Shown here in pieces: positions 7,453 to 22,994 of a stretch of 64,000 nucleotides of DNA (positions are counted from its first letter, which is position 1; the number at the start of each line of letters is the position of its first letter). The DNA comes from an uncultured Lachnospiraceae bacterium. GTDB lineage: Bacteria; Bacillota; Clostridia; Lachnospirales; Lachnospiraceae. The translations under genes were made by a program, and so were the position numbers. Below the pieces are notes generated by a model. That model ran no database searches. It had not been told where the DNA came from and worked only from the letters and a program-made list of their open reading frames with translations. The stretch spans positions 62,001-126,000 of the forward strand of contig CANRFJ010000005.1 in the NCBI GenBank assembly GCA_947629865.1. The letters run 5' to 3'.

Positions 7453-7516
7453 GCGAACTGCGTTCGCTTTACTATTTGTGGCGCTCCAGCACAAATAGCA
7501 GACAAATACATTCGTC
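7453..7516 (-). repeat. Dispersed multi-hairpin element, copy 1 (before the symporter gene)
   Basis: Read on the minus strand the element holds, in order, GACGAATGTATTTGTC (7516-7501), CTATTTGTG and CACAAATAG arms (7498-7472) around the loop ctggagcgc, and GCGAACgcaGTTCGC (7467-7453). Further down, GCGCTCC (about 7397-7391) can pair with GGAGCGC of the loop, right before the symporter ribosome site GGAGG. The same order of parts, with different bases but kept pairing, occurs at 38000-38115 ahead of the XRE gene. That conservation of shape across two unrelated loci is the evidence for one repeat family. Confidence 0.7.
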
Positions 7517-7583
7517 TTTTTCAATACTTCAAACCATATATGAAAATTTGACATATATCTTTTTTATTTTACCACAAAAAGAG

Positions 7584-7601
7584 CGCCTCTGTAAAGAGGC
7601 G
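7584..7601 (-). terminator. Hairpin with T-run, possible back-up terminator for the toxin transcript
   Basis: CGCCTCT (7584-7590) and AGAGGCG (7595-7601) form a 7-bp stem with a GTAA loop. On the minus strand it is followed by CTCTTTTTG. It lies between the toxin locus and the symporter gene. A promoter-like TTTACA-N18-TAAAAT overlaps it and could serve the symporter, but this is weak. Confidence 0.4.
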
Positions 7602-7690
7602 TATTCCTACGCCCGGCGTAATTCTACGTCCGGCGTATTTTTCTTGCCTGGCGGTATTGCAGCTACTTGTCAGGACATATTAAATTTATG

Positions 7691-7719
7691 TTGAATATAT
7701 GTGAAAAGTGTGGTATAGT
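7691..7719 (+). promoter_or_regulatory. SigA promoter of the antisense RNA
   Basis: TTGAAT at 7691-7696 and TATAGT at 7714-7719 are separated by 17 bases. Transcription would start near 7726 and run towards the 3' end of the toxin gene. Confidence 0.7.
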
Positions 7720-7725
7720 TTTATC

Positions 7726-7828
7726 AGAAAAGGAAAGCACCCATTCCAAAATGGATGCTCCCAGTGGTTCAATGTCCTTACGGACACCGCCTATCCTGTG
7801 GATCAGACAGGATAGGCATTTTTATTTT
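7726..7828 (+). ncRNA. Candidate antitoxin RNA, antisense to the toxin mRNA 3' end
   Basis: A transcript of about 100 nt is bounded by a good promoter (7691-7719) and an intrinsic terminator. The terminator stem is GCCTATCCTGT (7789-7799) with ACAGGATAGGC (7807-7817), 11 perfect pairs, followed by ATTTTTATTTT. Inside are two smaller hairpins, one with AATGG/CCATT arms and one GTCCttacGGAC. The toxin mRNA runs the other way and appears to end near 7730 at the minus-strand hairpin GCATCCATT/AATGGGTGC followed by TTTCCTTTTC. The two RNAs would therefore overlap over nearly the whole antitoxin length at their 3' ends, as in Bacillus subtilis txpA/RatA. An open frame runs through this stretch on plus but has no family resemblance. 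Confidence 0.68.
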
Positions 7829-7941
7829 CGCCTTTTCTTTCTCTTTTGGAGAAAGGCAAGCAACGCTACAATCAGGCTACCAAAGGCACATAACAAAGTT
7901 AATATACCGATGAAAATCGAAATGATTTCAAAAACTGTCAT
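7822..7941 (-). CDS. Type I toxin, putative holin-like membrane peptide
   Basis: A 39-residue peptide starting MTVFEIISIFIGIL, with one hydrophobic helix (about 4-30) and a strongly basic tail LQKRKKRRK. This plan matches the small holin-like toxins of Firmicutes (TxpA/Hol_Tox kind), which damage the membrane when over-made. GGGAGG lies about nine bases before the ATG at 7941. A sigA promoter at 8096-8124 gives a leader of about 148 nt, long for such a short gene. In that leader CCTCCC (in TAGCCTCCCAAT) can pair with the ribosome site GGGAGG, which would hold translation off. Several hairpins occur in the leader, for example TGGCgaaaGCCA at its 5' end and AACGTACataGTACGTT just before the ribosome site. 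The stop codon touches the antisense RNA terminator. Confidence 0.8.
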   Translation of the reverse strand: MTVFEIISIFIGILTLLCAFGSLIVALLAFLQKRKKRRK

Positions 7942-8095
7942 ATAACGCCACCTCCCCTCTAACGTACTATGTACGTTTTGTATTACCGGCAAGCCGGTCA
8001 TCAGGCATTGGGAGGCTACCTCTACGCTTCGCTCCAATCGGAGTTAAACAAGCGTCCTGTCATGGGCACTTTCCTATGGCTTTCGCCACGTCACT

Positions 8096-8124
8096 AATAT
8101 ACCATTTCCAGCATCATATTTCAA
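8096..8124 (-). promoter_or_regulatory. SigA promoter of the toxin gene
   Basis: On minus, TTGAAA (8124-8119) and TATATT (8101-8096) are separated by 17 bases. The predicted start near 8089 leaves a structured leader before the toxin ATG at 7941. Apart from this promoter, 7942-8188 holds no gene. Confidence 0.72.
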
Positions 8125-8188
8125 CCGTTTTCCACAATTCTTTCTCTCTGTTTACCTCTGTTTTTGATTCCTTTCCACCCGATACAAT

Positions 8189-9676
8189 TTAATATATAAA
8201 CACGGCTTCCCGGTACTTAATCATATTGTAGAGTTTCTCTGCATCCTGCAAGGAGAGATTCAGACAGCCATGGGAACCGTGCGTCTTATACAGCGTCTTT
8301 GTCCAGCGGCTCCAGGGCTGCCATGTGGCGGCGTGCAATCCGGTGCCCGTCCATGTAATACGGATCCAGTACTTGGTAAAAGTCTTGTAATCCTCTCCCA
8401 CCATCGTGTAGTTGGTGCGGTGCTCCTTGATATAGTACACTCCTTTGTGCGTCTCCCGTCCCTGCACCGGACGCCCGGATATACAGCGGCACGAATAGGC
8501 CACTTTTCCCTTCCGGAACACATAGACCATCTGGTCTTTCAGGGAAATCTCCACATAGTTTTTCTGATCCCAGTCCTTGATCTTCCCCTCAAAATCCAAC
8601 GTGTGCGCAACCGTCAGATAGGCCGGTTTATTGTCAATGACCTGCGGGCCCCCCGTCTCCCCGGCAGTCTCCTTCGTTTCCTTTTTCAGCGACTTCTTCA
8701 GCTGCTTGAGCGTCTCCTCCTCGCTGATCTGCCAGCCGTAATCGCCGCCGCCCAGCGATACCTTCTTTCCGGTATGCGTCTTGAATTTCCGCGTCTTACC
8801 TACCGTGCAATATTTACTGCAAAATTTATGTACCCATTTTTCCATTTTTTTCTTTTTGAAAACAACGGCGCCGTCCCTGTAGGAAATCCAACGGGCAATC
8901 TGTTCCGGATTGACCGTCTCTATGTGATCCTTGTCCAGTTTCCAGCGGATCTGGCGGTTCACCGTGCTGTCGAGGGCATTGACCTCCTGCTGCAATTCCC
9001 GGCTGCCGGAAGTAACGGCCGGAGCCTCGTATACATCGGGGTGATTCTCCTGGTCTGTGAGATCCAGCGTCTTTTCTCCCTGCCGGAGCGCCTTCTCCAC
9101 CTCTGAGAGCAGAACGGCCGTCTGCACTGTGTTTCCCTCCTGCTCCGGCACACATACATACCGCCCGGACGCTTTGTCGTACTTCGCATACGCGGACACC
9201 GGCTTCCTGATAATGTGCTTTTCATCTCCCTGAACGATGGCAGAGCCGCGGATTATCTCCGCAAGCAACTCCGCATCATAGGATACATCCAGTCCCACAT
9301 TGAGCTGCTCGTCCTGTGAAAAAAGCCCCACTCCATCGGAGTGCTGTTCATCAAACGCCTCGCTCCACCGGTCGTCCGTCTTCGCCTGATAGCCAATCTG
9401 ATCGCCCGGAATCATGAGGCTCACATTGTCGCGCCCTTTCACTGTCAGCGTGTAACCGCGAAAATACTCCGTCAGTTTTTCGCGGGAATCCTCCAATGTA
9501 CAGCCCGCCACCGGAATGGCGTTCACCGTCGTCCCCGGATACCAGCGGTTTCCGTAATACAGATGCCGGATCAGGCCAAAGGCGCCAAATCCCAGCAGAA
9601 AACAAGCCGCCGCTATTCCGGCTATCCACAGTGTAATATGTAATTTTTTCTTCTCTGTCTCTGTCTGTGTCTCCAT
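8189..9676 (-). CDS. L,D-transpeptidase (YkuD domain) with peptidoglycan-binding region
   Basis: Cell-wall enzyme of 495 residues expected to form 3-3 cross-links or attach proteins to peptidoglycan outside the membrane. After a short charged start, one membrane helix (about 12-34) anchors it. The middle (about 40-320) resembles the PG_binding_4 modules that precede YkuD domains: WYPGTTVNAIPVAGCTLEDS opens the first. The C-terminal catalytic domain starts near KDQMVYVFRKGKVAYSC, with a conserved His in GLHAATW and the active-site SHGCLNL near residue 470, where Cys is the nucleophile. The start has AGAGGAT upstream. It is the last gene of the dlt-like operon, 35 bases after the transglutaminase gene. 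Confidence 0.9.
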   Translation of the reverse strand: METQTETEKKKLHITLWIAGIAAACFLLGFGAFGLIRHLYYGNRWYPGTTVNAIPVAGCTLEDSREKLTEYFRGYTLTVKGRDNVSLMIPGDQIGYQAKTDDRWSEAFDEQHSDGVGLFSQDEQLNVGLDVSYDAELLAEIIRGSAIVQGDEKHIIRKPVSAYAKYDKASGRYVCVPEQEGNTVQTAVLLSEVEKALRQGEKTLDLTDQENHPDVYEAPAVTSGSRELQQEVNALDSTVNRQIRWKLDKDHIETVNPEQIARWISYRDGAVVFKKKKMEKWVHKFCSKYCTVGKTRKFKTHTGKKVSLGGGDYGWQISEEETLKQLKKSLKKETKETAGETGGPQVIDNKPAYLTVAHTLDFEGKIKDWDQKNYVEISLKDQMVYVFRKGKVAYSCRCISGRPVQGRETHKGVYYIKEHRTNYTMVGEDYKTFTKYWIRITWTGTGLHAATWQPWSRWTKTLYKTHGSHGCLNLSLQDAEKLYNMIKYREAVFIY

Positions 9677-9711
9677 ATCCTCTTACCTCTTGTGTCACAA
9701 AATCTCTGCTT

Positions 9712-11259
9712 CTATAATCGCTTTGACGCCCGTTTCGGAAAAATATTCCGCTTAAACTGGAACACATATCCCGTAGAGTAACTCCACAGCTGCGCATCCG
9801 TCCACAGGCAGAAATTGGCATTGCGCGACCGCGGCGTCGTGTCAAAATGATACCACCCTCCGCGCACATATGTCAGATTCCAGTAATGTGTCATACCTCC
9901 CGGAACCGGATACCGCTTTACTATAATATTCGGAATTCCCGCTCTTGTCAAGAGCAGACGGCTCATTGCGTAAAAGATATAGCAATCCCCCGAATGATAA
10001 CGAAGTCCATGGAGCGCCGACGTGCGCCAATGTCCATGTGCCGTATGTGAAATATAGGAGCAGTGTCCCCGTATATAACGGTAAATGGCTCTTGCCTTCT
10101 GCTCATCAGACCAGTTCTTCCGGGTAATCGAGCGCAGGATCGAATCCGCCGCCGACTCCGCTGTGCCGGGCACATAGACGCGCACCTTCGCCCATGTCCT
10201 CGATTTGTTCCCCGCCCGGTCACTGGCAGAGAACCACAACTTATAGACGCCTGATTTCTTCCAGTTGATCTTACTGGTATCGGCCTTCACCTTCACCCTG
10301 CCGTCCCGGTCATCCTCCGCCTTTACAAACCGCGTAAAATTGTACTGCTTCTTTCGATCCGAATAATAGACGCGGAGAATGTCATTGTATCCAAGGGCGC
10401 TCTTTTTCCTGACATAGCCCGTGATGACCGGCGCCTTTTTGTCTTTTGTCCCCCACTTAAACTGATAACTTCCCTCAGCTGCGTCATAGATATACAGCGC
10501 CTTTCCGGTATACAGTTTTATCTCCGTAAGCTTTGCCTGCGAAAAGCCGGGATAAATCGCGCCATCCTCCGCCCCGGAGCAGACGGCTCCTGCCGTCTCT
10601 CCCGCCTTGATATCCCTCGCAGTCAGCGTCACCTCCCGGTTTACCGTCTCATACTGCTGCTCCGCGTTCCCCGCATCAGCTGCCCCCGGAGAGACTGCCT
10701 GCCCGGAAGCGGCCGTCCCCGGCTGTTGCGACGGATTTGCCGGTTCCGATGGATTTACCTCCATGGGAATTTTTACCGGCACGCTGTAGGAGTAGATGAT
10801 GCGCTTTACCGTCCCCTTTTTGGCATGGTTGCTAATATCCATCTGCCAGGGAAATCCCTCTGCGCTTCCCTCCTCCGCCTTCTCAAGGGCGATTTCCGAG
10901 AACGTTACGGGGAGGCTCTCCGGCTTACGAGCCCTTTTTTTCACTGCAACTGTGTATTTCTTTGTCTTCTTTCCCTGCCGGATAACCGATATTTTAACTC
11001 CGCCCTTCTTCTTTCCCGTCACCACGCCTTTTTCGTCCACACTGGCCACCACGCTGTTGCTGCTCTTAAATGAAGCTCCCGTTATCCCTTTTTTAATCCG
11101 GAAGCGCTGTCCGACTTTTATGGTCTTTGACACGCTTTTTGACGCTGCCGTTTTCTTTTTGGCCCGAATCTGCGCGGCCTCCGGATTTGTCAGAACCACA
11201 CCGCAAAGCAACAATCCCGCCACCGTCCGGGCCACAATCTTTTTCTTTTCTGTCTTCAT
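9712..11259 (-). CDS. Secreted transglutaminase-like protein with N-terminal Ig-like domain
   Basis: A 515-residue exported protein. A signal peptide (1-about 33) is followed by a bacterial Ig-like (Big2) domain, about 43-108, with FKSSNSVVASVDEKGVVTGKKKG. A Pro/Ser/Ala linker lies near 170-200. An Ig-like cadherin-type segment (about 270-365) contains DRAGNKSRTWAKVRVYVPG. The C-terminal transglutaminase core has SGDCYIFYAMSRLLL (Cys), MTHYWNLTYV (His) and WYHFDTTPRS (Asp), the complete papain-like triad. Members act as proteases or amide-forming enzymes; which applies here cannot be told. Placement between a small secreted protein and an L,D-transpeptidase suggests wall assembly. Confidence 0.86.
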   Translation of the reverse strand: MKTEKKKIVARTVAGLLLCGVVLTNPEAAQIRAKKKTAASKSVSKTIKVGQRFRIKKGITGASFKSSNSVVASVDEKGVVTGKKKGGVKISVIRQGKKTKKYTVAVKKRARKPESLPVTFSEIALEKAEEGSAEGFPWQMDISNHAKKGTVKRIIYSYSVPVKIPMEVNPSEPANPSQQPGTAASGQAVSPGAADAGNAEQQYETVNREVTLTARDIKAGETAGAVCSGAEDGAIYPGFSQAKLTEIKLYTGKALYIYDAAEGSYQFKWGTKDKKAPVITGYVRKKSALGYNDILRVYYSDRKKQYNFTRFVKAEDDRDGRVKVKADTSKINWKKSGVYKLWFSASDRAGNKSRTWAKVRVYVPGTAESAADSILRSITRKNWSDEQKARAIYRYIRGHCSYISHTAHGHWRTSALHGLRYHSGDCYIFYAMSRLLLTRAGIPNIIVKRYPVPGGMTHYWNLTYVRGGWYHFDTTPRSRNANFCLWTDAQLWSYSTGYVFQFKRNIFPKRASKRL

Positions 11260-11276
11260 CTTCCTTCTGTCCTCTC

Positions 11277-11780
11277 TTATGCCTTAATATAGCGTATATT
11301 AGTCACTATATCGTCTGTCACTTCAATCTGGAGTTTAGAACCCCCTTTTTTGTAGGTATACACTCCGAGATAATCCTTTTTGTTTCCGTATTTTTTCTTC
11401 ACCTTGCTGTACGGGCTGCCGATTTTAATTTTCTCCTTTGTCGCCGCTTTTTTTGTCAGAAAAGTAATGCCGCTCACATATTCCGGGCCGTTGTCCGTCA
11501 TGGAATAGGTATAGAGGATAAAGTCCTTATACTTATAGGTTCTGTCCTTTCCGTCGTAGGCGCAGCTCTTGACCGCCTTCACTTTCTTTGGCTTCCCTGC
11601 CTTCTTAATCAGCTTTTTAGCCGGGCCGCCCATGTATACCGTCACTTTTTTCCATGTGAATTTGTACCCCTTGGCCTTCGCCTGAGCCGTGGCGCTTCCC
11701 CCGGCAGGAATCCCGCCTGTGAGGACGGCCGCCAGTGCAGCCGCCAAAATCAGCATCCGCAACATCTTCTTCTGTCTCAT
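11277..11780 (-). CDS. Small secreted basic protein of unknown function
   Basis: I do not recognise the family. It has 167 residues with a signal peptide (1-about 34, ending near GSATAQA) and a lysine-rich mature part. The end of the protein, with GSPYSKVKKKYGNKK and the LQIEVTDDIVTNIRYI strand pair, recalls small beta-rich secreted domains in which a YG-K/N-P/K motif precedes a two-strand tail, but no name can be given. Its ATG overlaps the stop of the adenylation gene (ATGA, 11777-11780). Its translation is thus probably coupled to that enzyme, which ties it to the acylation module. Confidence 0.7.
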   Translation of the reverse strand: MRQKKMLRMLILAAALAAVLTGGIPAGGSATAQAKAKGYKFTWKKVTVYMGGPAKKLIKKAGKPKKVKAVKSCAYDGKDRTYKYKDFILYTYSMTDNGPEYVSGITFLTKKAATKEKIKIGSPYSKVKKKYGNKKDYLGVYTYKKGGSKLQIEVTDDIVTNIRYIKA

Positions 11781-13309
11781 TTGTCAGTACCTCCTAAATA
11801 TTGTTGTTTTAAATATTTCCTGTCTATCTTCCCGTTATCATTGTGGGGAAATTCTGACAGGAGGATATAGCGCCCCGGCATCATATACTGGGGCAGGATC
11901 TTCATGAGCCGCCTCCGTATCTCTCTCTCAGAGACCATATCCTTTCCCTCGCAGAAAGCGACGATTACGCTGTCCTTTTCATCATAGATACAACAGGCAT
12001 TTTCTATCTCCGACTGACCAAGAATGGCCGTCTCTATCTCTCCGAGTTCAATCCGGTACCCCTTGTGCTTGATCTGGAAATCCTTTCGCCCGTCAAACAT
12101 CAGCTCCCCGCGCTCATTGTAGTGAGCCAGATCGCCGGTGCGGTATATCTTTTCCTCATAGTGGGGATTCAGCGGATTCTGCACAAACGCCTCTGCCGTC
12201 TTGTCCGGATTGTTATAATATCCAACCGATATACCCGTTCCTCTCACATAAATCTCCCCCATGACATCCGGCTCACAGATACGCCGATTCTTCCCGTCAA
12301 GCAGAAGAACCTGCATATTCCTGCACGGCTCACCGATAGGCAGGGGCTCGTCGTCCCGGAACGCCCTATCGAGTCGGTAAAAGGTGCACACATCGGTAAT
12401 CTCCGTGGGCCCGTACAGATTGGCATAGACCGCCTCCGGCAATACCCGCCGCCAGCAGTTCAGATGTCTACTCGGCATTATCTCCCCCGCAAATAAAACC
12501 TTCCGGATACTGGAACCCTTCATCTGCTCCAGCAGCCCGCTGTTTGCCACGGCAATCAATGCGGAGGGCACCCAGAAAATAAAATTTATCTTATTTTCCC
12601 GGAGATATTTCAGCAGACTCTCCGTCATAGCGAAATAACTCTCCGGCATTACAAACAGGTGTGCCCCTCTGCTCATGCAAAGGTAAATGTCCAAAACGGA
12701 ATTATCAAAGTAAAAGGGAGCTTGATTCGCAATCCGTTCCTCTGCCGTAATCTCAAATTCCTCCCCCGCCCAGTCTATGTAATCTATAATTCCCCTGTGT
12801 GTTATTGACACTCCCTTAGGCACTCCGGTCGAACCGGAAGTAAAAAGCACATAGGCGAGATCTGTGTCAATCGCCTCTCGCAGATACTCCCCGGCGTCTT
12901 TTGTCCGTTCCGAAAAATCAATGTCTTCCAGAAAGATCATCTTCTCCTCCGGCACACCGTTTTTCAACAGTTTTTCTCCGTTTTTCCTATCCGTGATAAT
13001 AAGGCGCGGCGAGAGACACTGCATAATGGAATTTACCTTCTCAAAGGGGAAGCGCACATCTGTGGGCGTATAATAGCCGCCGCTATACAAAACGCCCGCG
13101 AAGGAAACCAGCGCCATCGCCGATTTGGGAAGATAAATCAAAATGGGAATCTGCCGTTCTTTCACCTTGGCACGGATAGCATCTGCCAGACAGAGCGCCC
13201 GTTCCCTCCACTGTCCAAAAGTTATCTCCTCCCGTGAATCAGTCATCGCCACTCTGTCCGGCAGCTGTGTCGCCGTCTCCTCCAGATAGCATAATACTGA
13301 ATTTCTCAT
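11777..13309 (-). CDS. DltA-like amino acid adenylation enzyme
   Basis: Cytoplasmic ligase of 510 residues that would activate an amino acid with ATP and load it on the carrier protein encoded at 16037-16285. Core motifs are complete: FTSGSTGVPKG (156-166), FDNSVLDIY (201-209), NLYGPTEIT (297-305), YRTGDLAHY (389-397), GRKDFQIKHKGYRIELGEIE (407-426) and NGKIDRK, with the catalytic Lys at 493. The overall look is closest to DltA (D-alanine:carrier ligase). The segment that reads FLFCGE in Bacillus DltA reads VLFAGE here (Ala274). In B. cereus DltA that Cys (269) helps select D-alanine over L-alanine, so the substrate may differ. Ribosome site GAGAGGTG. No condensation or other NRPS domains. 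Confidence 0.85.
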   Translation of the reverse strand: MRNSVLCYLEETATQLPDRVAMTDSREEITFGQWRERALCLADAIRAKVKERQIPILIYLPKSAMALVSFAGVLYSGGYYTPTDVRFPFEKVNSIMQCLSPRLIITDRKNGEKLLKNGVPEEKMIFLEDIDFSERTKDAGEYLREAIDTDLAYVLFTSGSTGVPKGVSITHRGIIDYIDWAGEEFEITAEERIANQAPFYFDNSVLDIYLCMSRGAHLFVMPESYFAMTESLLKYLRENKINFIFWVPSALIAVANSGLLEQMKGSSIRKVLFAGEIMPSRHLNCWRRVLPEAVYANLYGPTEITDVCTFYRLDRAFRDDEPLPIGEPCRNMQVLLLDGKNRRICEPDVMGEIYVRGTGISVGYYNNPDKTAEAFVQNPLNPHYEEKIYRTGDLAHYNERGELMFDGRKDFQIKHKGYRIELGEIETAILGQSEIENACCIYDEKDSVIVAFCEGKDMVSEREIRRRLMKILPQYMMPGRYILLSEFPHNDNGKIDRKYLKQQYLGGTDK

Positions 13310-13323
13310 TCAATCACCTCTCT

Positions 13324-14496
13324 CTAATAACTGCGAATCTCCCCATATTTTTGTAATTCTTCCTTCTGCCCCTGTATCATTTCCTCATAAAATCTCTCCT
13401 TTTCGCGATAGACGTCCTGATACTCACCCTCTCCCCGACGGTCAGGAATTCCATATTGTTTTGACAGCATATTCCCCAGATATTCGGACAGCTTGTCCGC
13501 TCCGCTCCGGTTCATATGAAGTCCCCCGTCATAGGTGTCCGTCTCATAATCAATGCCTGTCTCCTCCAGATGTTCATAAAAATTGATATACGGAAGACGG
13601 TGCTCTCTTGCATACTCCTGCACCTGGTTCTCATCTGAGTCATACCAGATGGGAGCCAGACTCGGCGCTTTCATGAGAATCAACTGTATATCGTGAACCT
13701 CGCACAACTTGCGAATACGCTCCATGTATTCCATGGGGAGCACGCCAAATGGTTCGCCCTGCTCCCTCTCCTCAGGGACATCGGCCTCCTCATCCGCCCC
13801 TTCGATCTCCGCCCAGGGATCCTCTATCTCCTCCTCTTTTTCCTCCTCTCCAAAAAGCCAGGAGGGATCCGCCACATCCGATTCGCTGACAGGCAGCACG
13901 TCCACCCGCATATAATAGCCATTGTGCGTAACCTTTTTCCTTTTCCGGAAATACCGCAGGTCGTCTGTGGACAAATCCAGAATCCGGCTGTGATACCGCA
14001 GAAGGGGAAATATGTATTCCATCATGTGCTCCCCTCCGCACCGGGAGGCCTGGATGGCATGAATTTTTGATTCCGACCACCGCATACCGTCCAGAGCCAT
14101 TCGGTTGTACTCCTCTTTGTGAGGCTCTTTGCAGGTCAACGCCTGTACGTTATAAATGACAGCCTTCGGCGTCTCATAGCGCAACGCATCTTCCAGCATA
14201 TAATAGGAATGCCATGCCAATTGCTCCGCATTGCCCCTGATATAACCGGTAATCCCATACCGTCTCCACAGATAGATCGGATCAATATTTTCATAGACTT
14301 CGCAGTCCCCAATCATCAGCACATCATGGGGCAGTGTCTCGTCATAATATTCCGCCGTAAAGTTACCCTCCGGCACATCTATGTATTTGGGCTGCACAAG
14401 CCGCTGTAATCCGGCTGCCACCAGAATAAAAAACCCCGCAGAGAGCAGACCGACCGCCGCTTTTTTCACAGCCTTTCCTGATTTTTGTAACCGCAC
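13324..14496 (-). CDS. DltD-like SGNH-fold protein with Cys in the Ser position
   Basis: A membrane-anchored extracellular protein of 390 residues. The anchor helix spans about 11-30. The first SGNH block reads MIGDCEVYENI, so Cys65 sits where hydrolases and DltD carry Ser. The last block reads DGGLHMNRSG, giving Asp323 and His327. A glutamate-rich, low-complexity insertion (about 216-250) contains EEEKEEEIEDPW. By analogy with DltD it would take part in passing the acyl group to the final acceptor outside the membrane. The start is GTG at 14496 with AAGGAGG upstream. It lies 14 bases before the adenylation gene and 15 after the MBOAT gene. Confidence 0.75.
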   Translation of the reverse strand: MRLQKSGKAVKKAAVGLLSAGFFILVAAGLQRLVQPKYIDVPEGNFTAEYYDETLPHDVLMIGDCEVYENIDPIYLWRRYGITGYIRGNAEQLAWHSYYMLEDALRYETPKAVIYNVQALTCKEPHKEEYNRMALDGMRWSESKIHAIQASRCGGEHMMEYIFPLLRYHSRILDLSTDDLRYFRKRKKVTHNGYYMRVDVLPVSESDVADPSWLFGEEEKEEEIEDPWAEIEGADEEADVPEEREQGEPFGVLPMEYMERIRKLCEVHDIQLILMKAPSLAPIWYDSDENQVQEYAREHRLPYINFYEHLEETGIDYETDTYDGGLHMNRSGADKLSEYLGNMLSKQYGIPDRRGEGEYQDVYREKERFYEEMIQGQKEELQKYGEIRSY

Positions 14497-14511
14497 TTTT
14501 CCGCCTCCTTC

Positions 14512-16020
14512 TCAGAACTGATTGTAAATAAACTGCTGCACATCATATCCCTGTCCATAGGTTCCAAAGAGGAGTACGCAGAAAAACATGCCCACAACTA
14601 CCGCATAGCGCAATATGTATGGCTTTTCATTTATTCTCTCCCTGACACTCCCCTTTCTCTCGCACATACTCACGCCAAAGAGAAGAAGCACACCCAGAAC
14701 AAGCACGGCGTAATCTCCCGGCGTAAGTCCCAACCCCAGCAGTTCCTCCCCCGTCAGGGCGCGCCTGCCCCACTGGGTAAACATATGCGCAAACTGTCGG
14801 AACGTCCTCCTGACACTGCCATAGACGTCGAACAGGTTCAGGGCGCTCGTCAGAAGAAACGTCCGGACTACCTGTAATCCCCGGTAAAATACAGTAGCGG
14901 AAAGTCGGGAGAAACGTCTGTGGAAACGCTTATACAGTGGTATGCACTCCTCGGACGCGAGAAGGATAAAACCGTTCAGCAGCCCCCACACGACAAAACG
15001 CCACTCTGCACCATGCCAGATACCCGTTGACAGCCAGACAACCACCGTGGATATATAGAGCACGCTCCTCCTCGCAACGGCCCGCCCAAAGTGCCTTTTG
15101 CAAAAAGAGTTAATCTTTCGGACAGGACGGCTCGTGGCACATGGGAAAAACACATAGTCCTTAAACCATGCTCCCATGGAAATATGCCATCTCCGCCAAT
15201 ACTCCGCAAGATTTTTGGAAAAATAAGGGCGGATAAAATTTTCCCTCACGCGGACGCCAAACACCTGGGCAATCCCTATAGTGATGTCGATTCCGCCGCT
15301 GAAATCTGCATAGATCTGCACGGCGTAAAACAGCATATTTACCAGGACATACACCCCTGTATAATAGCGGGGAGAATCCGACAGAGCCGCCACCGCCACG
15401 CCAATCCGGTCGGCAATGACAAGTTTTTTCAGATAGCCCCACAAAATTCTCTCCAGACCAGCCAGCACCTGACGCCCGTTAAAATCGTGTCGCTGATACA
15501 GCGTTTCCGACAAATGGTCATAGCGGCTGATCGGGCCCTGGATCAACTGCGGAAAGAAAGAGATAAACAGCAAAAAGCGGAAATAATTTTTCTCTGCCGC
15601 ATATTTCCCGCGATATACATCGATTAGATATCCCACCGCCTGAAAGGTGTAAAAGGAGATACCCATAGGGACAATCAGATTCACAAGAGCCAACGGCTCT
15701 CCCCCTGCGCTCTCCCGTATGTAATTCAGATTCTGCAACACAAAATTTGTATATTTGACAACCGCCAGGATTCCGATGTTTACAATCAGACAGGAAATCA
15801 CTATCGCCCTCTTTCGGGATCGTTTCTGTCCAAGCCCCCGCGCCGCCCCATAAACGGTAATCGATGTGAGAACGATAAAAACGAGATAACGCACGTCCGC
15901 CGATCCGTAAAACAGGAGGCTGGCAGCCAGCAGAAACGCCCACTGCCCGCCCTTCGGTATGAGGTAATACAATACAAAAAGGATTGCCAGAAATACTATA
16001 AATGTATACGATACAAACAT
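14512..16020 (-). CDS. MBOAT family membrane acyltransferase (DltB/AlgI-like)
   Basis: Polytopic membrane protein of 502 residues. The N-terminus FLAILFVLYYLIPKGGQWAF and LLFYGSADVRYL resemble AlgI-type MBOAT proteins. The cytoplasm-side signature NLAEYWRRWHISMGAWFKDY is clear, and the likely catalytic His is in STGIWHGAEWRF. DltB enzymes are usually about 100 residues shorter, and this length fits the AlgI branch better. With an adjacent carrier protein and adenylation enzyme, the likely job is to move an aminoacyl or acyl group from the carrier protein across the membrane to a polymer or protein. Ribosome site GGAGAGAG, 16 bases below the carrier-protein gene. Confidence 0.87.
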   Translation of the reverse strand: MFVSYTFIVFLAILFVLYYLIPKGGQWAFLLAASLLFYGSADVRYLVFIVLTSITVYGAARGLGQKRSRKRAIVISCLIVNIGILAVVKYTNFVLQNLNYIRESAGGEPLALVNLIVPMGISFYTFQAVGYLIDVYRGKYAAEKNYFRFLLFISFFPQLIQGPISRYDHLSETLYQRHDFNGRQVLAGLERILWGYLKKLVIADRIGVAVAALSDSPRYYTGVYVLVNMLFYAVQIYADFSGGIDITIGIAQVFGVRVRENFIRPYFSKNLAEYWRRWHISMGAWFKDYVFFPCATSRPVRKINSFCKRHFGRAVARRSVLYISTVVVWLSTGIWHGAEWRFVVWGLLNGFILLASEECIPLYKRFHRRFSRLSATVFYRGLQVVRTFLLTSALNLFDVYGSVRRTFRQFAHMFTQWGRRALTGEELLGLGLTPGDYAVLVLGVLLLFGVSMCERKGSVRERINEKPYILRYAVVVGMFFCVLLFGTYGQGYDVQQFIYNQF

Positions 16021-16036
16021 GGTCTCTCTCCTTTTG

Positions 16037-16285
16037 TTACTGTTTTTCCCTCAGACGGAGAATCATGTCTGTCAGCCCATCCAACGAGTTGAAATTCTCC
16101 GCCACAAATTCCTTCGCCGTGATATCCACGTCGAACTCCTCCGACAGTTCCGCCGCAAGGGAGACCAAATCAAAAGAATACAGAAGATTATCGTCTACTA
16201 ATTTTTTCTCCTTTTCAAAATCAATGTCATCATGAAGTTCCTCTAATATTGCCAATATTTTTTTTCTGACTGATGTAGTGTCCAT
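16037..16285 (-). CDS. Acyl/peptidyl carrier protein (DltC-like)
   Basis: An 82-residue acidic helical protein, the normal carrier-protein size. The phosphopantetheine site is the Ser of LLYSFDLVSLAAEL (about residue 38), placed before helix 2 as expected, with DVDITAKEFVAENF matching helix 3. The usual DSL or GSD triplet is replaced by YSFDL, a variant seen in outlying carrier proteins. It is the first gene of the operon, behind GGAGAGAG and a TATAAT promoter (16348-16375). It would carry the aminoacyl group made by the adenylation enzyme four genes on and hand it to the MBOAT protein. Confidence 0.85.
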   Translation of the reverse strand: MDTTSVRKKILAILEELHDDIDFEKEKKLVDDNLLYSFDLVSLAAELSEEFDVDITAKEFVAENFNSLDGLTDMILRLREKQ

Positions 16286-16347
16286 TTTCTCTCTCCTTGT
16301 AATGTGATAACTCCCACCGCCAAAATCCGCTCTGACATTCAGCAGAC

Positions 16348-16375
16348 ATTATAGCATTGCGCCGGACTGCAACAA
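16348..16375 (-). promoter_or_regulatory. SigA promoter of the dlt-like operon
   Basis: On minus, TTGTTG (16375-16370) and a perfect TATAAT (16353-16348) are separated by 16 bases. It lies 62 bases before the carrier-protein ATG. Gaps between the seven following genes are 35 bases or less, so one transcript from 16341 to 8189 is likely. Confidence 0.65.
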
Positions 16376-16462
16376 AGCGATTACCCATAAATTGTCGCAT
16401 AATAATCTCCATTCCGAAACACATTCGCGTGATTCTTCAATCCAGCTTTTTCCTGTGCTTTG

Positions 16463-19400
16463 CTATTTCTTAATCTTTACCTTCTTTATTTTACTCCACT
16501 TGCCGTAAAGTTTTTTACCGGATTTTTTCCGATATGCCCGCACGCGGACGTAATACTTCTTTCCTTTTTTCAGTTTGGAAATGGTCTTGGCGGATTTCCA
16601 CTTTCCGGCCCATTTGCTCTTTTTCTTTTTCGTAAATTTTTTGTTGAGCGCATACTGGATCTGGTATCCGGCCACGTTCGTCTTCCAACTCCAGCTCACG
16701 ACCATTTTTTTCTTTTTCTTGTTGTAGACAGATACACCGGTTACTCGGCCTGGTTTTTTGACCTTGGCCTTCTTCACTGTAGATGGCTCCGTTTTGGAAG
16801 GTTTAACTGTGGAAGGCTTAGTTGTGGAAGACGGCTTATTTAATTCTCCGCTGTCCTGCTTATATAAGATGCCATAACATACATTATCATCTTCCCAATA
16901 ATCCCCCTCGGATACTTCTGCTACCGTAGTCAAGTATGCCGCATTGGATGTGTTATATTTTATAAGGTTTTTCCCGATAGAAATTGTTTTTGTTATTTCC
17001 TGATTTGCAGCTAGCATAAAACTCGGTACAGTAGCTATTTCTTTTTCTTTCTCCGGACTACTATATACATGCAGTGTAGTATGAACTACTCGTCCACTAA
17101 TATTTTTCACTGCAACCTGAAGTAATACTTTGTCTTCCATCTCTGTTATGGAATTATCTACTTTTACATCTCCCTGCCCCACTGAAACAGAAACCTCATT
17201 TTGGGCCGTATTTTTTTGCGCCTCTGCATAAATTTGCACCTTTGCCGTGGCAGGGCTTTTTATATCTGACAAATCAATATATGTTTTATCTGAAAAAACT
17301 GCCCCCGGCTCAATAGAAACATCTAAATCCTTTTCCATTGTTACTCCATTTTCTGTGGTAAACACCAGATGCAAGTTGGTTATTTTATCCAGACTTGAAT
17401 TTGTCACATAATAATTTACAGCTGTTTTTCCTTCCTCGTCCTTATCTCTCTCGTCTACAGAAACGCCGTCTAAGGTAATTCCCTCATCGCTTTCTTTTTC
17501 AAGATATACGATTGAATTAAGTTGCGTACTGTAATTCTGCATATTAGCCATTATCCGCCACGTACCATCTTCTTCCATAAGCGGTGAAATCACTTGGAAC
17601 GCACTTTCGTCATTTTCGCATAACACAACGGGATCGGAATACCCTTCTTCGCCTTCTATACACCCTTTCACTATACCCTTATGTGATTCCGAATCATTGA
17701 TTATCCATGTCCAGCCCTTTTTCCCTCCATTTTCACAAAGTATGGCATTGCTTGGAATTTCCTGCGTGCCCGCTGTAATTTCTCTGGAGTTTCCTGTTTC
17801 CTCATCATATTCATAGGTAATCCCAGCACAATTATAATATAATTTATTATCCTGACACTGAAGATTTGCACACACATCTTCTGATTCCTCTGGTTCAAAT
17901 ATAATAGAACCATCACTGTTGTAAATACCTGTTATACCAGTGTCATCCTCGCCTAAATATACTATCTTGTCTTTTCCTTCCACCTGACAGAGAACATAAT
18001 CACATATGCCTTTTTGTGTCTCGCATATTTTTTCGGTATCAGACACTCCCCCTAATGTTTTTGCATATATACTGTTTTTGCCTGTCTGCTGCATTAAATC
18101 CCTGTCTGAATTCGTAACCCAGCTAACCACTGGTCCGTTTGTTCCTTCAAATATTCTCGGCTCGCCATCTGCTTCTGAATCTTCTGTTAATCTTGTCACA
18201 CCGGTAAATGAATCCGTAGCCGTATCAAATACTGCGCACCAAATCTCAGAAGCCTCTGACAAGTCAGACAAAACCTCTGTAATATCTTCCTCCACATTTC
18301 CCTGTATTTGTCGATTCATTTTCTGCCATGCCACAACGAGTTTACCGTTCACTACTTTCATATCAGCATACAAATCTGCATTGCCATCATCCTTTATTGC
18401 CTTAGGCTCACTCCACACACCATTTTCACAAACACTGTATTTTAAAATTGTCTGATTTAACTGTGAACGGCTGGCATCAAAATCTTGAAAAACCATAACC
18501 TGTTTCCCATCAATTTCGCAAAGAATCGGATTTGTTGTTGTCAACACCCCGCTCTGTAATGTTGTGGTGTTACCTGAAATTTCGTCCGCTGTCAATTTTT
18601 TTTGCAGTTTTTTCATATCTTTTGTCTTTGGCGAGTTCCAATCACTCGTTTTTTTGGCAAAAGATGTGTCAATGTACCTAACACGCCACGCATTTTTATT
18701 TTGATTTAATTCAAAATCTGGCACTTTCTTATTTTTTAACTTTATTTGTTTATTCCATAACGTCTTCTTATAATCCGCCATATCATATGACCAGTCAATC
18801 ACACAGGCCAAATATAAATGCAGGTAAGCAGCCGCCTCAAATTCTCCAGTTGTAGTTGTCTTTCCCTTTTCTCTTTTTACGCTTGTATTCAGACTGGCCT
18901 TTCCACCCACACCAACTGTTGCGCATTTATTAATTCCATATCCACCTTCCAGCGAAACTTCCGGTTTTAAGGAGAGACTGCCTGACGGATAAATAATTCC
19001 TTCACCATCAGATAATAAACCGAGTTTTCCCCCTAACTTTACAGAACCCGCCAATGAAATATACGTCGGCCCAATTGGAGTGGCAAACTGCCAGTCAGCG
19101 CTCCCACTCCATTTTAAATCTGGCGCAAGCATACCGCTTGACGAAATCAGCACACCATTTTTGTCATACTTATCCTCCATATAGCCCATCACAGATAATT
19201 TGGGCAATGCTTTAAATTTACTTACATCAAACGTTGATACCTTCTTCCCTTTATATTTTGTAAGCAATGAATCATAATGGGCAAATTTATTTGCATCATC
19301 ACATTTCTTTTTATAACTATCCCATGTGGTATCACTATCAAATATATCTGTTCTCCCTATTCCAATGGCATATTTTATCTTATATGAACCATCGGTTGAA

Positions 19401-20434
19401 TCTGTTGTTTTCGAATAAGTAATTGGGAAAATCGGATTTTTCATTTCCCATGTAGACGGAAAAAACGACTTAGCTTTTCCATCTATCGATCCGCCCGTTT
19501 CTGCTAAAACACTTAGCCCTTCCCCTGTCTGAACATTGTCACCTGAAGAAATTTCCTTTGCCTTTGGCTCTTTTACATACAAATATTCTGAATTCTTTTT
19601 TACTCGAATAACAGGTCTAACTCCATGTGCATAATTCCCGCCAGCTTGTCCATCCCAGACGCTACTCTGAACATGAATTCCCCCATTTTTGTATATATAC
19701 TGGCCCACATATGAATTATAATAATACCAATACGGATCACCTCTCAAATACCATGTGCCTGCAGATTCTTCATCGCTTAAATATTGTGTGTTATACGCAA
19801 CTCTTGTGTCAGATGCATCAGAAGAAGCAGAAAAACCATATTTTTCTGAAGTAACATCATCCTCATCTAACAACCATACATAGTCCTTTGATTCAATTGT
19901 TTCATGCGTATATATTGGATTATTGCAAAGACAATCATTATCCAATGTTTCTTCAATAAGATCGTTTTTTTCTTCATTTGTAAACGCTTCATTGTAAAAT
20001 GTATCGTTACACCATTTTCTTATTCCAGAATCGGGCCATCCTGTAGAACTTGAATAAGTTTTTGAATCTAAAATTTTATCAGAAAGCAATAAATAGGAAT
20101 CCCCATCGTCTGATAAAACTTTCCATTTTATTGGCGCAGACTTATAATATCTAAACCCATCATATTCAATAATATTAGATTTACGTTTAACCGTAATTCC
20201 GTTTATGACTGCCGTGTTATTTTTGTCAAACTTCCCTATATCCCAAATAGTTTTAATTTCGTCTTGATTAGTAACTTCTTTTTGGCAGTAATTTCCAAAA
20301 TATACATATTGATTTGATTCTGCTGCTTTAGATGTTGATTTCTCAACCTGTAACCCTGCCAAAAGTGACAGCGCCATTGAACAACACAGCACAACAGATA
20401 AAAACTTCCTTGATAATGCTATTCCTGTTTTCAT
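16463..20434 (-). CDS. Large secreted protein with DUF6273-like domain and Fn3-like C-terminus
   Basis: A 1323-residue exported protein. Signal peptide 1-about 37. A DUF6273-like domain (about 42-285) opens with YVYFGNY, has PIKWKVLS and LLLSDKILD, and ends in GVRPVIRVK; this fold is common in secreted proteins of gut Firmicutes and has no assigned function. The central part (about 300-1000) is beta-rich with propeller-like strands such as LKYSVCENGVWSEP. A CARDB-like segment (about 1000-1190) follows. A Thr/Pro/Ser linker then leads to the last 90 residues, an Fn3-like domain ending in a cationic tail with YYVRVRAYRKKSG and KWSKIKKVKIKK. The whole plan resembles the lipoprotein gene at 22995-27053. 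Nearest genes are unrelated, and the role is unknown. Confidence 0.8.
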   Translation of the reverse strand: MKTGIALSRKFLSVVLCCSMALSLLAGLQVEKSTSKAAESNQYVYFGNYCQKEVTNQDEIKTIWDIGKFDKNNTAVINGITVKRKSNIIEYDGFRYYKSAPIKWKVLSDDGDSYLLLSDKILDSKTYSSSTGWPDSGIRKWCNDTFYNEAFTNEEKNDLIEETLDNDCLCNNPIYTHETIESKDYVWLLDEDDVTSEKYGFSASSDASDTRVAYNTQYLSDEESAGTWYLRGDPYWYYYNSYVGQYIYKNGGIHVQSSVWDGQAGGNYAHGVRPVIRVKKNSEYLYVKEPKAKEISSGDNVQTGEGLSVLAETGGSIDGKAKSFFPSTWEMKNPIFPITYSKTTDSTDGSYKIKYAIGIGRTDIFDSDTTWDSYKKKCDDANKFAHYDSLLTKYKGKKVSTFDVSKFKALPKLSVMGYMEDKYDKNGVLISSSGMLAPDLKWSGSADWQFATPIGPTYISLAGSVKLGGKLGLLSDGEGIIYPSGSLSLKPEVSLEGGYGINKCATVGVGGKASLNTSVKREKGKTTTTGEFEAAAYLHLYLACVIDWSYDMADYKKTLWNKQIKLKNKKVPDFELNQNKNAWRVRYIDTSFAKKTSDWNSPKTKDMKKLQKKLTADEISGNTTTLQSGVLTTTNPILCEIDGKQVMVFQDFDASRSQLNQTILKYSVCENGVWSEPKAIKDDGNADLYADMKVVNGKLVVAWQKMNRQIQGNVEEDITEVLSDLSEASEIWCAVFDTATDSFTGVTRLTEDSEADGEPRIFEGTNGPVVSWVTNSDRDLMQQTGKNSIYAKTLGGVSDTEKICETQKGICDYVLCQVEGKDKIVYLGEDDTGITGIYNSDGSIIFEPEESEDVCANLQCQDNKLYYNCAGITYEYDEETGNSREITAGTQEIPSNAILCENGGKKGWTWIINDSESHKGIVKGCIEGEEGYSDPVVLCENDESAFQVISPLMEEDGTWRIMANMQNYSTQLNSIVYLEKESDEGITLDGVSVDERDKDEEGKTAVNYYVTNSSLDKITNLHLVFTTENGVTMEKDLDVSIEPGAVFSDKTYIDLSDIKSPATAKVQIYAEAQKNTAQNEVSVSVGQGDVKVDNSITEMEDKVLLQVAVKNISGRVVHTTLHVYSSPEKEKEIATVPSFMLAANQEITKTISIGKNLIKYNTSNAAYLTTVAEVSEGDYWEDDNVCYGILYKQDSGELNKPSSTTKPSTVKPSKTEPSTVKKAKVKKPGRVTGVSVYNKKKKKMVVSWSWKTNVAGYQIQYALNKKFTKKKKSKWAGKWKSAKTISKLKKGKKYYVRVRAYRKKSGKKLYGKWSKIKKVKIKK
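16466..16762 (-). repeat. Long direct repeat, copy A (Fn3-like module DNA)
   Basis: About 297 bases coding the Fn3-like cationic module. By eye it is roughly nine-tenths identical to 32884-33181 in the same orientation, including long runs without a change. The level is much higher than between the other modules of this family in the window, so a recent duplication or gene conversion is likely. Confidence 0.75.
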
Positions 20435-20537
20435 GCCTGTATCCTCCTTTACAATAAAACTTAGTTTCGGTTCTCTCTGTCGCTTACTTTAATTTTGCCT
20501 TCTGTTAGTAACAGTTATCTTTAATATAGATAAATGC

Positions 20538-21260
20538 TTAGGCTGATCGCTTACAGATTACAAGGTGTTTTATTTTATGTCCGCTCAATACAATCTCAAG
20601 TTTGTTTTTATTTATATTGGCATTTCTGATTGCCCTTGTTTTATTTCTTTTGTTTTTTATTTTTACTACCTCTCCCCCATCATCTGTATATTTATAAATT
20701 TTTGTACTTGATGTTATATTGAAGGTTCTTTTTTTAGCGCCTTTGTACTTGATAACACCGTTTGTGTCATAACAAATAAGGGGGCCGCTTGTCACTAACC
20801 GTTTTGTATTGATAGAATATTTTTCTAACGCTTCATGCCATATACATCCAACAGGTATATCAGATGAATTGATATATCTTTCGGGCGGATAATACCAAAT
20901 TACAACTTCTTTTAACTCATTGTTGCTTACCAGAATTTCAAGTTTATTTTTATCCATATTTGCGCTTCTAATTGCTACTAGTTTATCTTTCTTCTTTTTT
21001 AATAACTTCTGCGCGCTATATTGATAAAACTTTGTCTTTGATGTTATCCGCCAATTCCTTTTTTTAGCCTTTTTTTCCTTACCTCCACTTTTGGTAAGAT
21101 AGGTCAGAGAACCTCTTGTCACTAATTGTCTTGTATTAATGGTATAATCACCTAATACCGTGTAGCATATTTCTTTAGCTGATGCTGGTTTAACATTCTG
21201 AAATGATACGCTGCACACTAACATTACCATCATTAAAATAATGCTTAATATCTTTTTCAT
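20538..21260 (-). CDS. Secreted protein with two internal repeats, unknown function
   Basis: A 240-residue exported protein; signal peptide 1-about 26 (MKKILSIILMMVMLVCSVSF then a site near PASA). The mature part is two copies of a unit of about 90-100 residues. Both open with INTRQLVTRG or INTKRLVTSG, continue with KKRNWRITSKTKFYQY or KKRTFNITSSTKIYKY, and end with NKLEILVSN or NKLEIVLSG. The repeats look like beta-rich units, each with an isoleucine-alanine-arginine turn (AIRSANMDK, AIRNANINK). I do not recognise the family. Start at 21260 after GGGAGA; a Met at 21293 has no ribosome site. Confidence 0.7.
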   Translation of the reverse strand: MKKILSIILMMVMLVCSVSFQNVKPASAKEICYTVLGDYTINTRQLVTRGSLTYLTKSGGKEKKAKKRNWRITSKTKFYQYSAQKLLKKKKDKLVAIRSANMDKNKLEILVSNNELKEVVIWYYPPERYINSSDIPVGCIWHEALEKYSINTKRLVTSGPLICYDTNGVIKYKGAKKRTFNITSSTKIYKYTDDGGEVVKIKNKRNKTRAIRNANINKNKLEIVLSGHKIKHLVICKRSA

Positions 21261-21308: not shown

Positions 21309-22922
21309 TTATTTCTTAATCTTTACCTTCTTCACCTTACTCCACTTGCCGTAGAGTTTTTTGCCGGATTTTTTCCGATATGCCCGCACGCGGACGTAAT
21401 AGGTCTTTTTCTTTGTTACATTAAAGTACCACATACGTTTACTCGACGTCGTATTGTTTAATTTCTCTTTGGTAAAAGCGCGGTTTTTGGCAATCTGAGT
21501 CTGATATCTGCAATTTTTTCCTGCCGATTTCCACGTTACCTTGATTATCCTTCCCTTTATATTCTTTGCCTTGACCTTCTTTACTTTCCCCGGCTTTTTT
21601 ACAGTGGCGGAAACCTTCTCGGATTTTACAACTCCCCCATCTTCATCTGCATCCCACTCCGGCTCCTCCTCGTCAGGTTCTTCTGCCGCTATCACTGCCG
21701 GGCGTACTGTTGGCTGTATGGTCGGTTGTGCTGTCGGCTGCACAGTTGGTTTCGTCGTCGGCTGCACTACCGACTGCACTTTTACTGCGCTTAGGCCATA
21801 GCAAGCTGAATTTCCCGCCTTATCAAAGGCATAAATATGTGTAATATACTCGCCAAGTTCATAATTGTGGTCGCTGATATTCACGCGATATGTGTAATAA
21901 CCGTCTGTTCCCAGAGTTCCCGAAGCGGCGCGGTTACTGCCCCAATCTTTCTGAATGTCGTCCTGTCCGTTTGCCACTGTCCATGTTGGGAACTGCACTC
22001 TGTCCACACCGATATTATCACTTGCTTTACACCGGACGGTATATCCTGTTTCGCTTACTTCCACAACGCTTGCATCACTTATAACAGGTTTCACGTTTTC
22101 TGTAGTCGTAAAACTCCGCATGACATCACGGTATTCTTTCCCATTTACAACCCCATACAGAACAAACTTGTATGTCGTTCCCGGCTGAAGCGTATACTTC
22201 ATATCGTTATTGATATTACAGTTATAATTTACATAAGAAGTGCTCAAACCACACTGCTCTGAATAGGATTTTAACAAGGCGCCGTTGCTGTCATATAGAT
22301 AACATCCTACAGATGAAACAACCGCCCTCCCCGGATTCATGATCTTTGTATACATCTCCGCATTGGTGTCCCAGACAGCGTTCTGGCTGAAGTCTGCAAA
22401 AGAGACCGAGGCCGCCGGCTGCGGTGCAGAAGTATAGGCCGGCCGAATCGCACAGGCCAACACTGAGAGACTAAACCAATTTTCTGTGCAATAGGGTTGA
22501 TTACTATAATTCTGATTTACTGCATTAAAGCCTACGCTGTCTGCAGATGTAATAATCCCCACATGTCCATATATACCGGTACCGCCATAATTCACTTTCC
22601 ATACTCCAATGTCTCCGGCCTTGTAACCTCCATACACCCTTGTCCATCCCGGTGGCAGATCATTTGTAATATAGGCATTTGCATTACCCTTGGCATAACT
22701 CGCCACGCCAAAATAACTATAATAATACTTAATTAAATCGACGCATTGATTTCCATATTCTCCATCATAATCCAGTCCTTTGCTAATCTGCGCCCTTGCC
22801 CATGCCACGGCATCGTTCTGCGTCACCGCCTCAGCCACAGATACATTGTCCACTACTGTGGAAAACAAAACAGCAAGCATCAAAATAATACATAAACTTC
22901 GTTTTTTTGTTTTAATCAGCAT
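21309..22922 (-). CDS. CHAP-domain wall amidase with Fn3-like cationic C-terminus
   Basis: A 537-residue secreted enzyme predicted to cut peptidoglycan. Signal peptide 1-about 33. The CHAP domain (about 35-165) has the Cys in YGNQCVDLIKYYYSYFG and the His in YGHVGIITSAD, with KAGDIGVW between them. Next (about 175-275) is a beta-sandwich, FADFSQNAVWDTNAEMY, then a GBS_Bsp-like repeat (about 278-385) with VSETGYTVRCKASDNIGV. A linker of PT repeats (about 390-420) and an acidic stretch EEPDEEEPEWDADEDG follow. The last 90 residues form the Fn3-like module with YYVRVRAYRKKSG and KWSKVKKVKIKK. GAGGAGGG precedes the ATG at 22922. Confidence 0.87.
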   Translation of the reverse strand: MLIKTKKRSLCIILMLAVLFSTVVDNVSVAEAVTQNDAVAWARAQISKGLDYDGEYGNQCVDLIKYYYSYFGVASYAKGNANAYITNDLPPGWTRVYGGYKAGDIGVWKVNYGGTGIYGHVGIITSADSVGFNAVNQNYSNQPYCTENWFSLSVLACAIRPAYTSAPQPAASVSFADFSQNAVWDTNAEMYTKIMNPGRAVVSSVGCYLYDSNGALLKSYSEQCGLSTSYVNYNCNINNDMKYTLQPGTTYKFVLYGVVNGKEYRDVMRSFTTTENVKPVISDASVVEVSETGYTVRCKASDNIGVDRVQFPTWTVANGQDDIQKDWGSNRAASGTLGTDGYYTYRVNISDHNYELGEYITHIYAFDKAGNSACYGLSAVKVQSVVQPTTKPTVQPTAQPTIQPTVRPAVIAAEEPDEEEPEWDADEDGGVVKSEKVSATVKKPGKVKKVKAKNIKGRIIKVTWKSAGKNCRYQTQIAKNRAFTKEKLNNTTSSKRMWYFNVTKKKTYYVRVRAYRKKSGKKLYGKWSKVKKVKIKK

Positions 22923-22994
22923 GTGTGGTCCCTCCTCGCACATTAACTCAACATTACTGTTTGCATAAACCTAAATACTTCAAACAGATATTTA

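Follow-up and report, generated by a model that had tools for sequence, protein, structure and literature searches.

Can a row of genes that resembles the dlt operon, and that is joined by genes acting on the cell wall, belong to something other than the D-alanylation of lipoteichoic acid (LTA)? The question is raised by a locus of an uncultured Lachnospiraceae bacterium (assembly GCA_947629865.1), from which we analyzed a stretch of 64,000 nucleotides of contig CANRFJ010000005.1 (positions 62,001 to 126,000), referred to below as the window. Acylation of the cell envelope by MBOAT–SGNH pairs has so far been explained by a serine ester on the SGNH enzyme. From sequence comparisons the locus appears to be one copy of a widespread clostridial acyl-export cassette that is distinct from Dlt and has exchangeable loading enzymes; how it works chemically, what the window copy carries and which acceptor it serves are what we infer from these comparisons.

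Seven genes, all on the minus strand, run 5' to 3' as carrier, MBOAT, SGNH-like protein, adenylation enzyme (here the ligase), small secreted protein, transglutaminase-like protein and YkuD L,D-transpeptidase, in exactly the order given by a first-pass annotation of the window. The SGNH protein was searched in 117 genomes, its own included, and gave a match at E <= 0.001 in 56 of them, many distant. An alignment of 18 SGNH sequences (window included) was searched in a species-genome collection and returned at least 598 pattern stretches, of which at least 573 encode relatives. We analyzed the loci of the best 80 of these relatives, 38 of which are flank-complete, with at least 7 kb on each side of the SGNH gene. 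Transglutaminase-like protein, ligase, carrier, MBOAT, SGNH and small secreted protein are all present in 34 of the 38, a co-occurrence of six of the seven genes that goes beyond chance. The four exceptions are a locus without the ligase (L114), two without the transglutaminase-like protein (L165 and L190) and one with MBOAT and SGNH only (L123, on one contig with L049). This last is a remnant in which the SGNH cysteine discussed below has become Asp, the MBOAT end lacks its shuttle tyrosine, and no ligase, carrier, small secreted protein or transglutaminase-like gene was in view at the locus. One genome (G029) has the cassette split over two loci, carrier-MBOAT-SGNH-small secreted protein (L045) and ligase-transglutaminase-L,D-transpeptidase (L109), and each half retains cassette genes together, a pattern that points to function more than to inertia. 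Gene order differs between related loci, so the rearranged order cannot be the defining point that it was first taken to be. The proposal that the last three genes are conserved with the first four held for the transglutaminase-like protein (35/38) and the small secreted protein (37/38) and failed for the L,D-transpeptidase, which only three of the 38 loci have; it lies outside the cassette core and is probably a later addition. We found no description of the cassette in the literature.

One explanation would be a diverged Dlt operon that adds D-alanine to LTA or wall teichoic acid in the ordinary way. The functional set of ligase, carrier, MBOAT and SGNH protein is the same, and the models for DltA, DltB and DltC rank with the top NCBIfam hits, but the scores are far below the cut-offs: 305.2 bits against 559.85 for the ligase (DltA equivalog TIGR01734), 159.1 against 375 for the MBOAT (DltB equivalog TIGR04091), and 29.7 against 68 and 18.3 against 52.35 for the carrier with the DltC models. 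For the SGNH protein no DltD model and no NCBIfam family were listed at E <= 0.01. The low DltB score, the length of 502 residues and the C-terminus FIYNQF show an AlgI/PatA-like MBOAT and bear out the earlier suggestion of AlgI rather than DltB. Neither DltA nor DltB was found above cut-off in the window genome, which is 98% complete, and DltA passed its cut-off in only one of the 117 genomes; the check for a normal dltABCD elsewhere in the genome is therefore negative, and the locus is not a second system beside Dlt. There is also no D-alanine pocket. Aligned to the DltA of genome G070, which reads DLMVLCTVA, the window ligase reads DNLFLALDV and the common cassette ligase DAKCAGLGM. The Leu/Met/Cys cavity of DltA accommodates the methyl group of D-alanine, according to passages of PMC8972799, and in the window these residues are Asn203, Leu206 and Ala274 against L, M and C in the canonical DltA of G070 (equivalence by alignment). 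The acyl-tyrosine motif is fused to the MBOAT instead of being carried by a DltX microprotein of its own (no search for DltX was made in the rest of the genome), and the nucleophile position is occupied by cysteine. The window genome has no match to PF00884, the LtaS family to which LTA synthase belongs, nor do 10 of 20 cassette genomes, and type-I LTA is unlikely to be the acceptor in this organism. The genome does contain seven PF04464 (TagF-family) matches, which favor the Dlt explanation in that a teichoic-type acceptor is possible. Overall we regard a diverged Dlt operon as improbable, in agreement with the original idea of an acylation or aminoacylation system tied to wall-acting genes and other than ordinary LTA D-alanylation.

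The residues expected of an acyl relay are present and well conserved. The MBOAT ends in the acyl-shuttle hexapeptide (14515-14532), which contains Tyr499, and has its conserved histidine at His336; in the alignment of relatives the shuttle tyrosine and the histidine are each found in 71 of 72 sequences. Two further MBOATs of the window genome (G000:C12, L063 4745-6148 and 9953-11365) end in FIYFNF and FLYFRF, and other acyl-shuttle systems probably coexist there. In the SGNH protein the nucleophile position holds Cys65 (14302-14304) instead of serine, together with Asp323 and His327. Relatives retain the cysteine in 69/70, the histidine in 70/70 and the aspartate in 69/70, and the cysteine is a family trait. 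Seven other MBOAT-adjacent SGNH proteins, among which L060 and L061 are near copies, all have serine; the transglutaminase-like or small secreted protein is found in none of their loci and ligase plus carrier in four. The only Pfam result at E <= 0.01 was Lipase_GDSL_2 at 23.3 bits, below its cut-off, and the Foldseek matches of the SGNH model include DltD and the PatB structures 7tlv, 7trr and 7tjb. If the SGNH protein were catalytically dead, Cys65 would be structural and the transglutaminase-like protein or another enzyme would transfer directly from the MBOAT tyrosine. Three distant SGNH sequences could be read in this way, since L054 and L057 have Asn for the catalytic Asp and L058 has Asp for the His, but the near-invariance of all three residues in the wider set makes a dead enzyme hard to credit.

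The two proteins that accompany the SGNH enzyme also keep their conserved residues. The transglutaminase-like protein scores 42 bits with PF01841 (cut-off 23) and has a Cys426-His458-Asp473 triad, each residue of which is found in 60 of 61 relatives with one gap, that is in all 60 aligned copies; it may transfer acyl groups to amines. The small secreted protein has Cys73 (11562-11564) in an S-C-A motif, and this cysteine is kept in 69/70 relatives. An O-acylation of the PatAB/AlgI type, forming esters on a wall polysaccharide or a peptidoglycan sugar, would give these proteins a more modest part as binding or trimming accessories and would treat the cysteine as a substitute for serine. The motif and fold do fit PatA/PatB-type MBOAT–SGNH pairs, with PatB among the Foldseek rows, and the small secreted protein is similar to CAP_assoc_N/YjgB-like domains. 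Retention of the cysteine with no drift back to serine, and a complete triad that argues for a reactive role of the transglutaminase-like protein, speak against it, and we consider O-acylation of this kind possible though doubtful.

What the cassette would carry can be approached through the ligase. When ligase pockets were aligned to the G070 DltA, 42 of 65 rows (window included) were cassette ligases reading DAKCAGLGM, with close variants. By alignment these common-type ligases have a lysine where Bacillus cereus DltA has Met200, a residue that, again according to passages of PMC8972799, borders the cavity for the methyl group of alanine, so an acidic side chain would be expected in the cargo. 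The commonest extra neighbor is a racemase, counted first in 37 of the best 80 loci, in 25 of these inside the cassette span. A profile search that covered both locus sets, with 78 distinct ligase rows, found a racemase in 48 of the 67 loci with a Lys-type ligase and in none of the 11 others (Fisher p = 7e-6, a value that ignores relatedness). Of the 48 racemases, 46 lie within 500 bases of a same-strand cassette gene and the other two within 1.5 kb, and all four that were sampled exceed the cut-off of TIGR00035 (amino acid racemase, aspartate type). Because of the pocket lysine and the racemase in Lys-type loci, the cargo of the common form is probably an acidic D-amino acid, with D-aspartate the simplest candidate. 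In two further loci a gene next to the DltA-like ligase (the gene at L105 6511-7707 and at L107 8942-10174) resembles, by eye, a fold-III pyridoxal phosphate-dependent decarboxylase or racemase and may make the loaded amino acid. A third ligase type, VIHFFIMHV (L129, L130, L131, L139, L158, L159), has Val in place of the alpha-amino-binding Asp of DltA, so it may load something other than an alpha-amino acid. The carrier was scored in five of these six loci and has Thr before its serine in all five.

The window copy differs from the common form in its loading enzyme. Its ligase and that of L111 (on one contig with L038) share the uncharged pocket DNLFLALDV. In a tree of MBOAT and SGNH the window and L111 fall inside a clade that contains Lys-type cassettes (starred nodes), while in the ligase tree they group with DNLFLCLDV ligases from other loci (97 and 100, starred); both trees were quick ones with SH-aLRT support only. 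The conflicting positions suggest that the original ligase of the window copy was replaced, apparently by a relative from other, mostly glycan-island-like loci. Five of the six non-cassette DNL/DNM-type ligases lie in such loci (L095, L096, L097, L098, L103), which have several carriers with KASIII-like and short-chain-dehydrogenase-like genes (functions read by eye); the sixth (G114, L101) has other surroundings. Read by eye from sequence starts, L095-L098, L102, L103 and L108 are glycan-island-like, and their ligases are of the DNLFLC type or related to it. NeuB-like genes occur in L097 and L108, and a flagellin-like gene in L110, whose ligase is of another type. Both captured ligases have Ala where the six non-cassette DNL/DNM ligases have Cys, and passages of PMC8972799 describe the DltA cysteine at that position as clashing with L-alanine. 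A profile search of the window turned up no racemase, and the sole PF01177 match above cut-off in the window genome is, by eye, a MurI-type glutamate racemase. The replacement of the loading enzyme has probably changed the cargo too, to another small amino acid that bears no charge.

The carrier has changed along with the ligase. It has Tyr36 (16178-16180) instead of Asp before Ser37 (16175-16177), the expected phosphopantetheine site. In all 76 distinct rows the residue before this serine goes with the type of ligase, with Asp in 66 Lys-type, Thr in eight VIH/DVH and Tyr in two DNL rows, a covariation that amounts to only two ligase changes on the tree. Carriers beside free DNL-type ligases have Asp where read (for example L095 and L097), so the tyrosine did not arrive with the ligase. 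The altered residues announced in the first-pass annotation, Tyr36-Ser37 for Asp-Ser and Cys65 for Ser, are thus real, although its title was silent on the cysteine as a family trait and on the replacement of the ligase.

Taken as a whole, cargo and ligase exchange included, we consider it reasonably likely, if far from certain, that the cassette is a carrier-fed MBOAT–SGNH acyl-export system that works like Dlt and PatAB and lies outside Dlt. By analogy with its family the ligase would adenylate a small acid and load the carrier phosphopantetheine. The MBOAT would move the acyl group through the membrane onto its own Tyr499, as for PatA and DltB/DltX, and Cys65 of the SGNH protein would accept it as a thioester, compared with the serine ester of DltD and PatB. 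The transglutaminase-like and small secreted proteins would then take part in bringing it to an acceptor in the wall, which may be peptidoglycan or a protein. A more specific and much more tentative version, which we would not expect to hold in full, is an extracytoplasmic aminoacyl-thioester relay. Here the carrier thioester would pass to a reactive phenyl ester on the MBOAT tyrosine, then to the Cys65 thioester, and by transthioesterification to Cys426 of the transglutaminase-like protein, with the small secreted protein, whose Cys73 is nearly invariant, serving as an intermediate or for docking; in the last step an amine on peptidoglycan or on a wall protein would receive the cargo in amide linkage. 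Such a relay would be a route outside the cell for appending D-amino acids, with a logic like that of an E1-E2-E3 chain, and its loading modules would be exchangeable: the common form would load an acidic D-amino acid, the window has its captured ligase, and a third type is partly without the amino-binding Asp.

Several points weigh against the export proposal, besides the TagF-family matches, the altered distant SGNH sequences, the relatedness behind the racemase association and the small number of ligase changes already given. The loci analyzed belong to the best 80 of at least 573 relatives, so that distant cassettes may differ. A racemase was not seen in 19 of the 67 Lys-type loci, and the four sampled copies also exceed the cut-off of NF052483 (cysteate racemase), so D-cysteate cannot be told from D-aspartate. 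The change from Asp to Tyr could weaken recognition of the carrier by AcpS, and the genome has a single PF01648 match. No DltD chain is among the 50 VIA-align matches listed for the SGNH model, and the transglutaminase-like protein could be a hydrolase.

The features of the locus are collected in Table 1. The genes are co-directional and close-packed between 16285 and 8189, with intergenic distances from carrier to L,D-transpeptidase of 16, 15, 14, −4, 17 and 35 bases. Gaps of 35 bases or fewer had been stated correctly; "fused" was the wrong word for genes that are separate. The single clear promoter claimed for the locus stands in part: an extended −10 element is read directly upstream of the carrier gene, and a two-hexamer −35/−10 scan listed no site in this region. 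Across 7500-20600 the scan gave 37 promoter-like matches compared with a mean of 20.5 in shuffles. A ribosome-binding-site-like AAGGAG lies 5' of the carrier gene. The L,D-transpeptidase scores 67.4 bits with PF03734 (cut-off 23.4) and has its catalytic Cys471 in SHGC (HGSHGCLNL). Further upstream, large secreted proteins (window 16463-20434 and 21309-22943) share a Lys-rich C-terminus, YGKWSK.KKVKIKK, and are possible wall proteins.

Table 1. Features of the cassette locus, in window positions.
Feature	Position	Strand	Details	Basis
Extended −10 promoter-like element	16348..16356	−	TGcTATAAT; TATAAT = 16353-16348	Read directly
Acyl/aminoacyl carrier protein	16037..16285	−	82 residues	PF00550, 18.3 bits, below cut-off 20.8
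MBOAT acyltransferase	14512..16020	−	502 residues	PF03062, 2.1e-17
SGNH-fold extracytoplasmic transferase (predicted)	13324..14496	−	390 residues; N-terminal hydrophobic helix	Lipase_GDSL_2 and Foldseek
Stand-alone adenylation enzyme (ligase)	11777..13309	−	510 residues; pocket DNLFLALDV, captured type	Pfam/NCBIfam and alignment
Small secreted protein	11277..11780	−	167 residues; CAP_assoc_N/YjgB-like fold	Pfam and residue alignment
Secreted transglutaminase-like protein	9712..11259	−	515 residues; Big_2 and Ig-like regions	PF01841
YkuD-type L,D-transpeptidase	8189..9676	−	With PG_binding_4; few relatives have one	PF03734

A large SGNH family that keeps its cysteine together with a transglutaminase-like protein, and often a racemase, predicts a chemistry different from the serine ester, with thioesters and possibly amide products. 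A predicted consequence is modification of clostridial walls by acidic D-amino acids. At least one exchange of loading modules has apparently taken place in nature, and it gives a convenient case for testing what sets the cargo and how carrier and ligase co-adapt.

Among known systems the cassette resembles Dlt (DltA-B-C-D-X) in that a ligase loads a carrier, an MBOAT and an SGNH-fold protein export the acyl group, and an acyl-tyrosine shuttle is expected. It differs in scoring below the Dlt cut-offs, in having Cys for Ser and no D-alanine pocket, in a shuttle motif that belongs to the MBOAT and not to DltX, in its transglutaminase-like and small secreted core partners, and in a genome without a PF00884 match. 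With peptidoglycan O-acetylation by PatA/PatB, as far as this is described in passages of PMC12148441, it shares an MBOAT domain with the conserved histidine and a C-terminal FXYXXF, and a separate SGNH-fold partner, here with Cys65 in place of the catalytic serine. PatA uses acetyl-CoA according to the same passages, whereas the cassette MBOAT is expected to be fed by ligase and carrier and has the transglutaminase-like and small secreted proteins attached. A further parallel, within the clostridia, is given by Ser-type loci (L099, L100, L105, L106), which have ligase, carrier, SGNH and an MBOAT with a near-C-terminal tyrosine (DFIYRGF in L100); all four differ from the cassette in having a serine nucleophile and neither a transglutaminase-like nor a small secreted protein.

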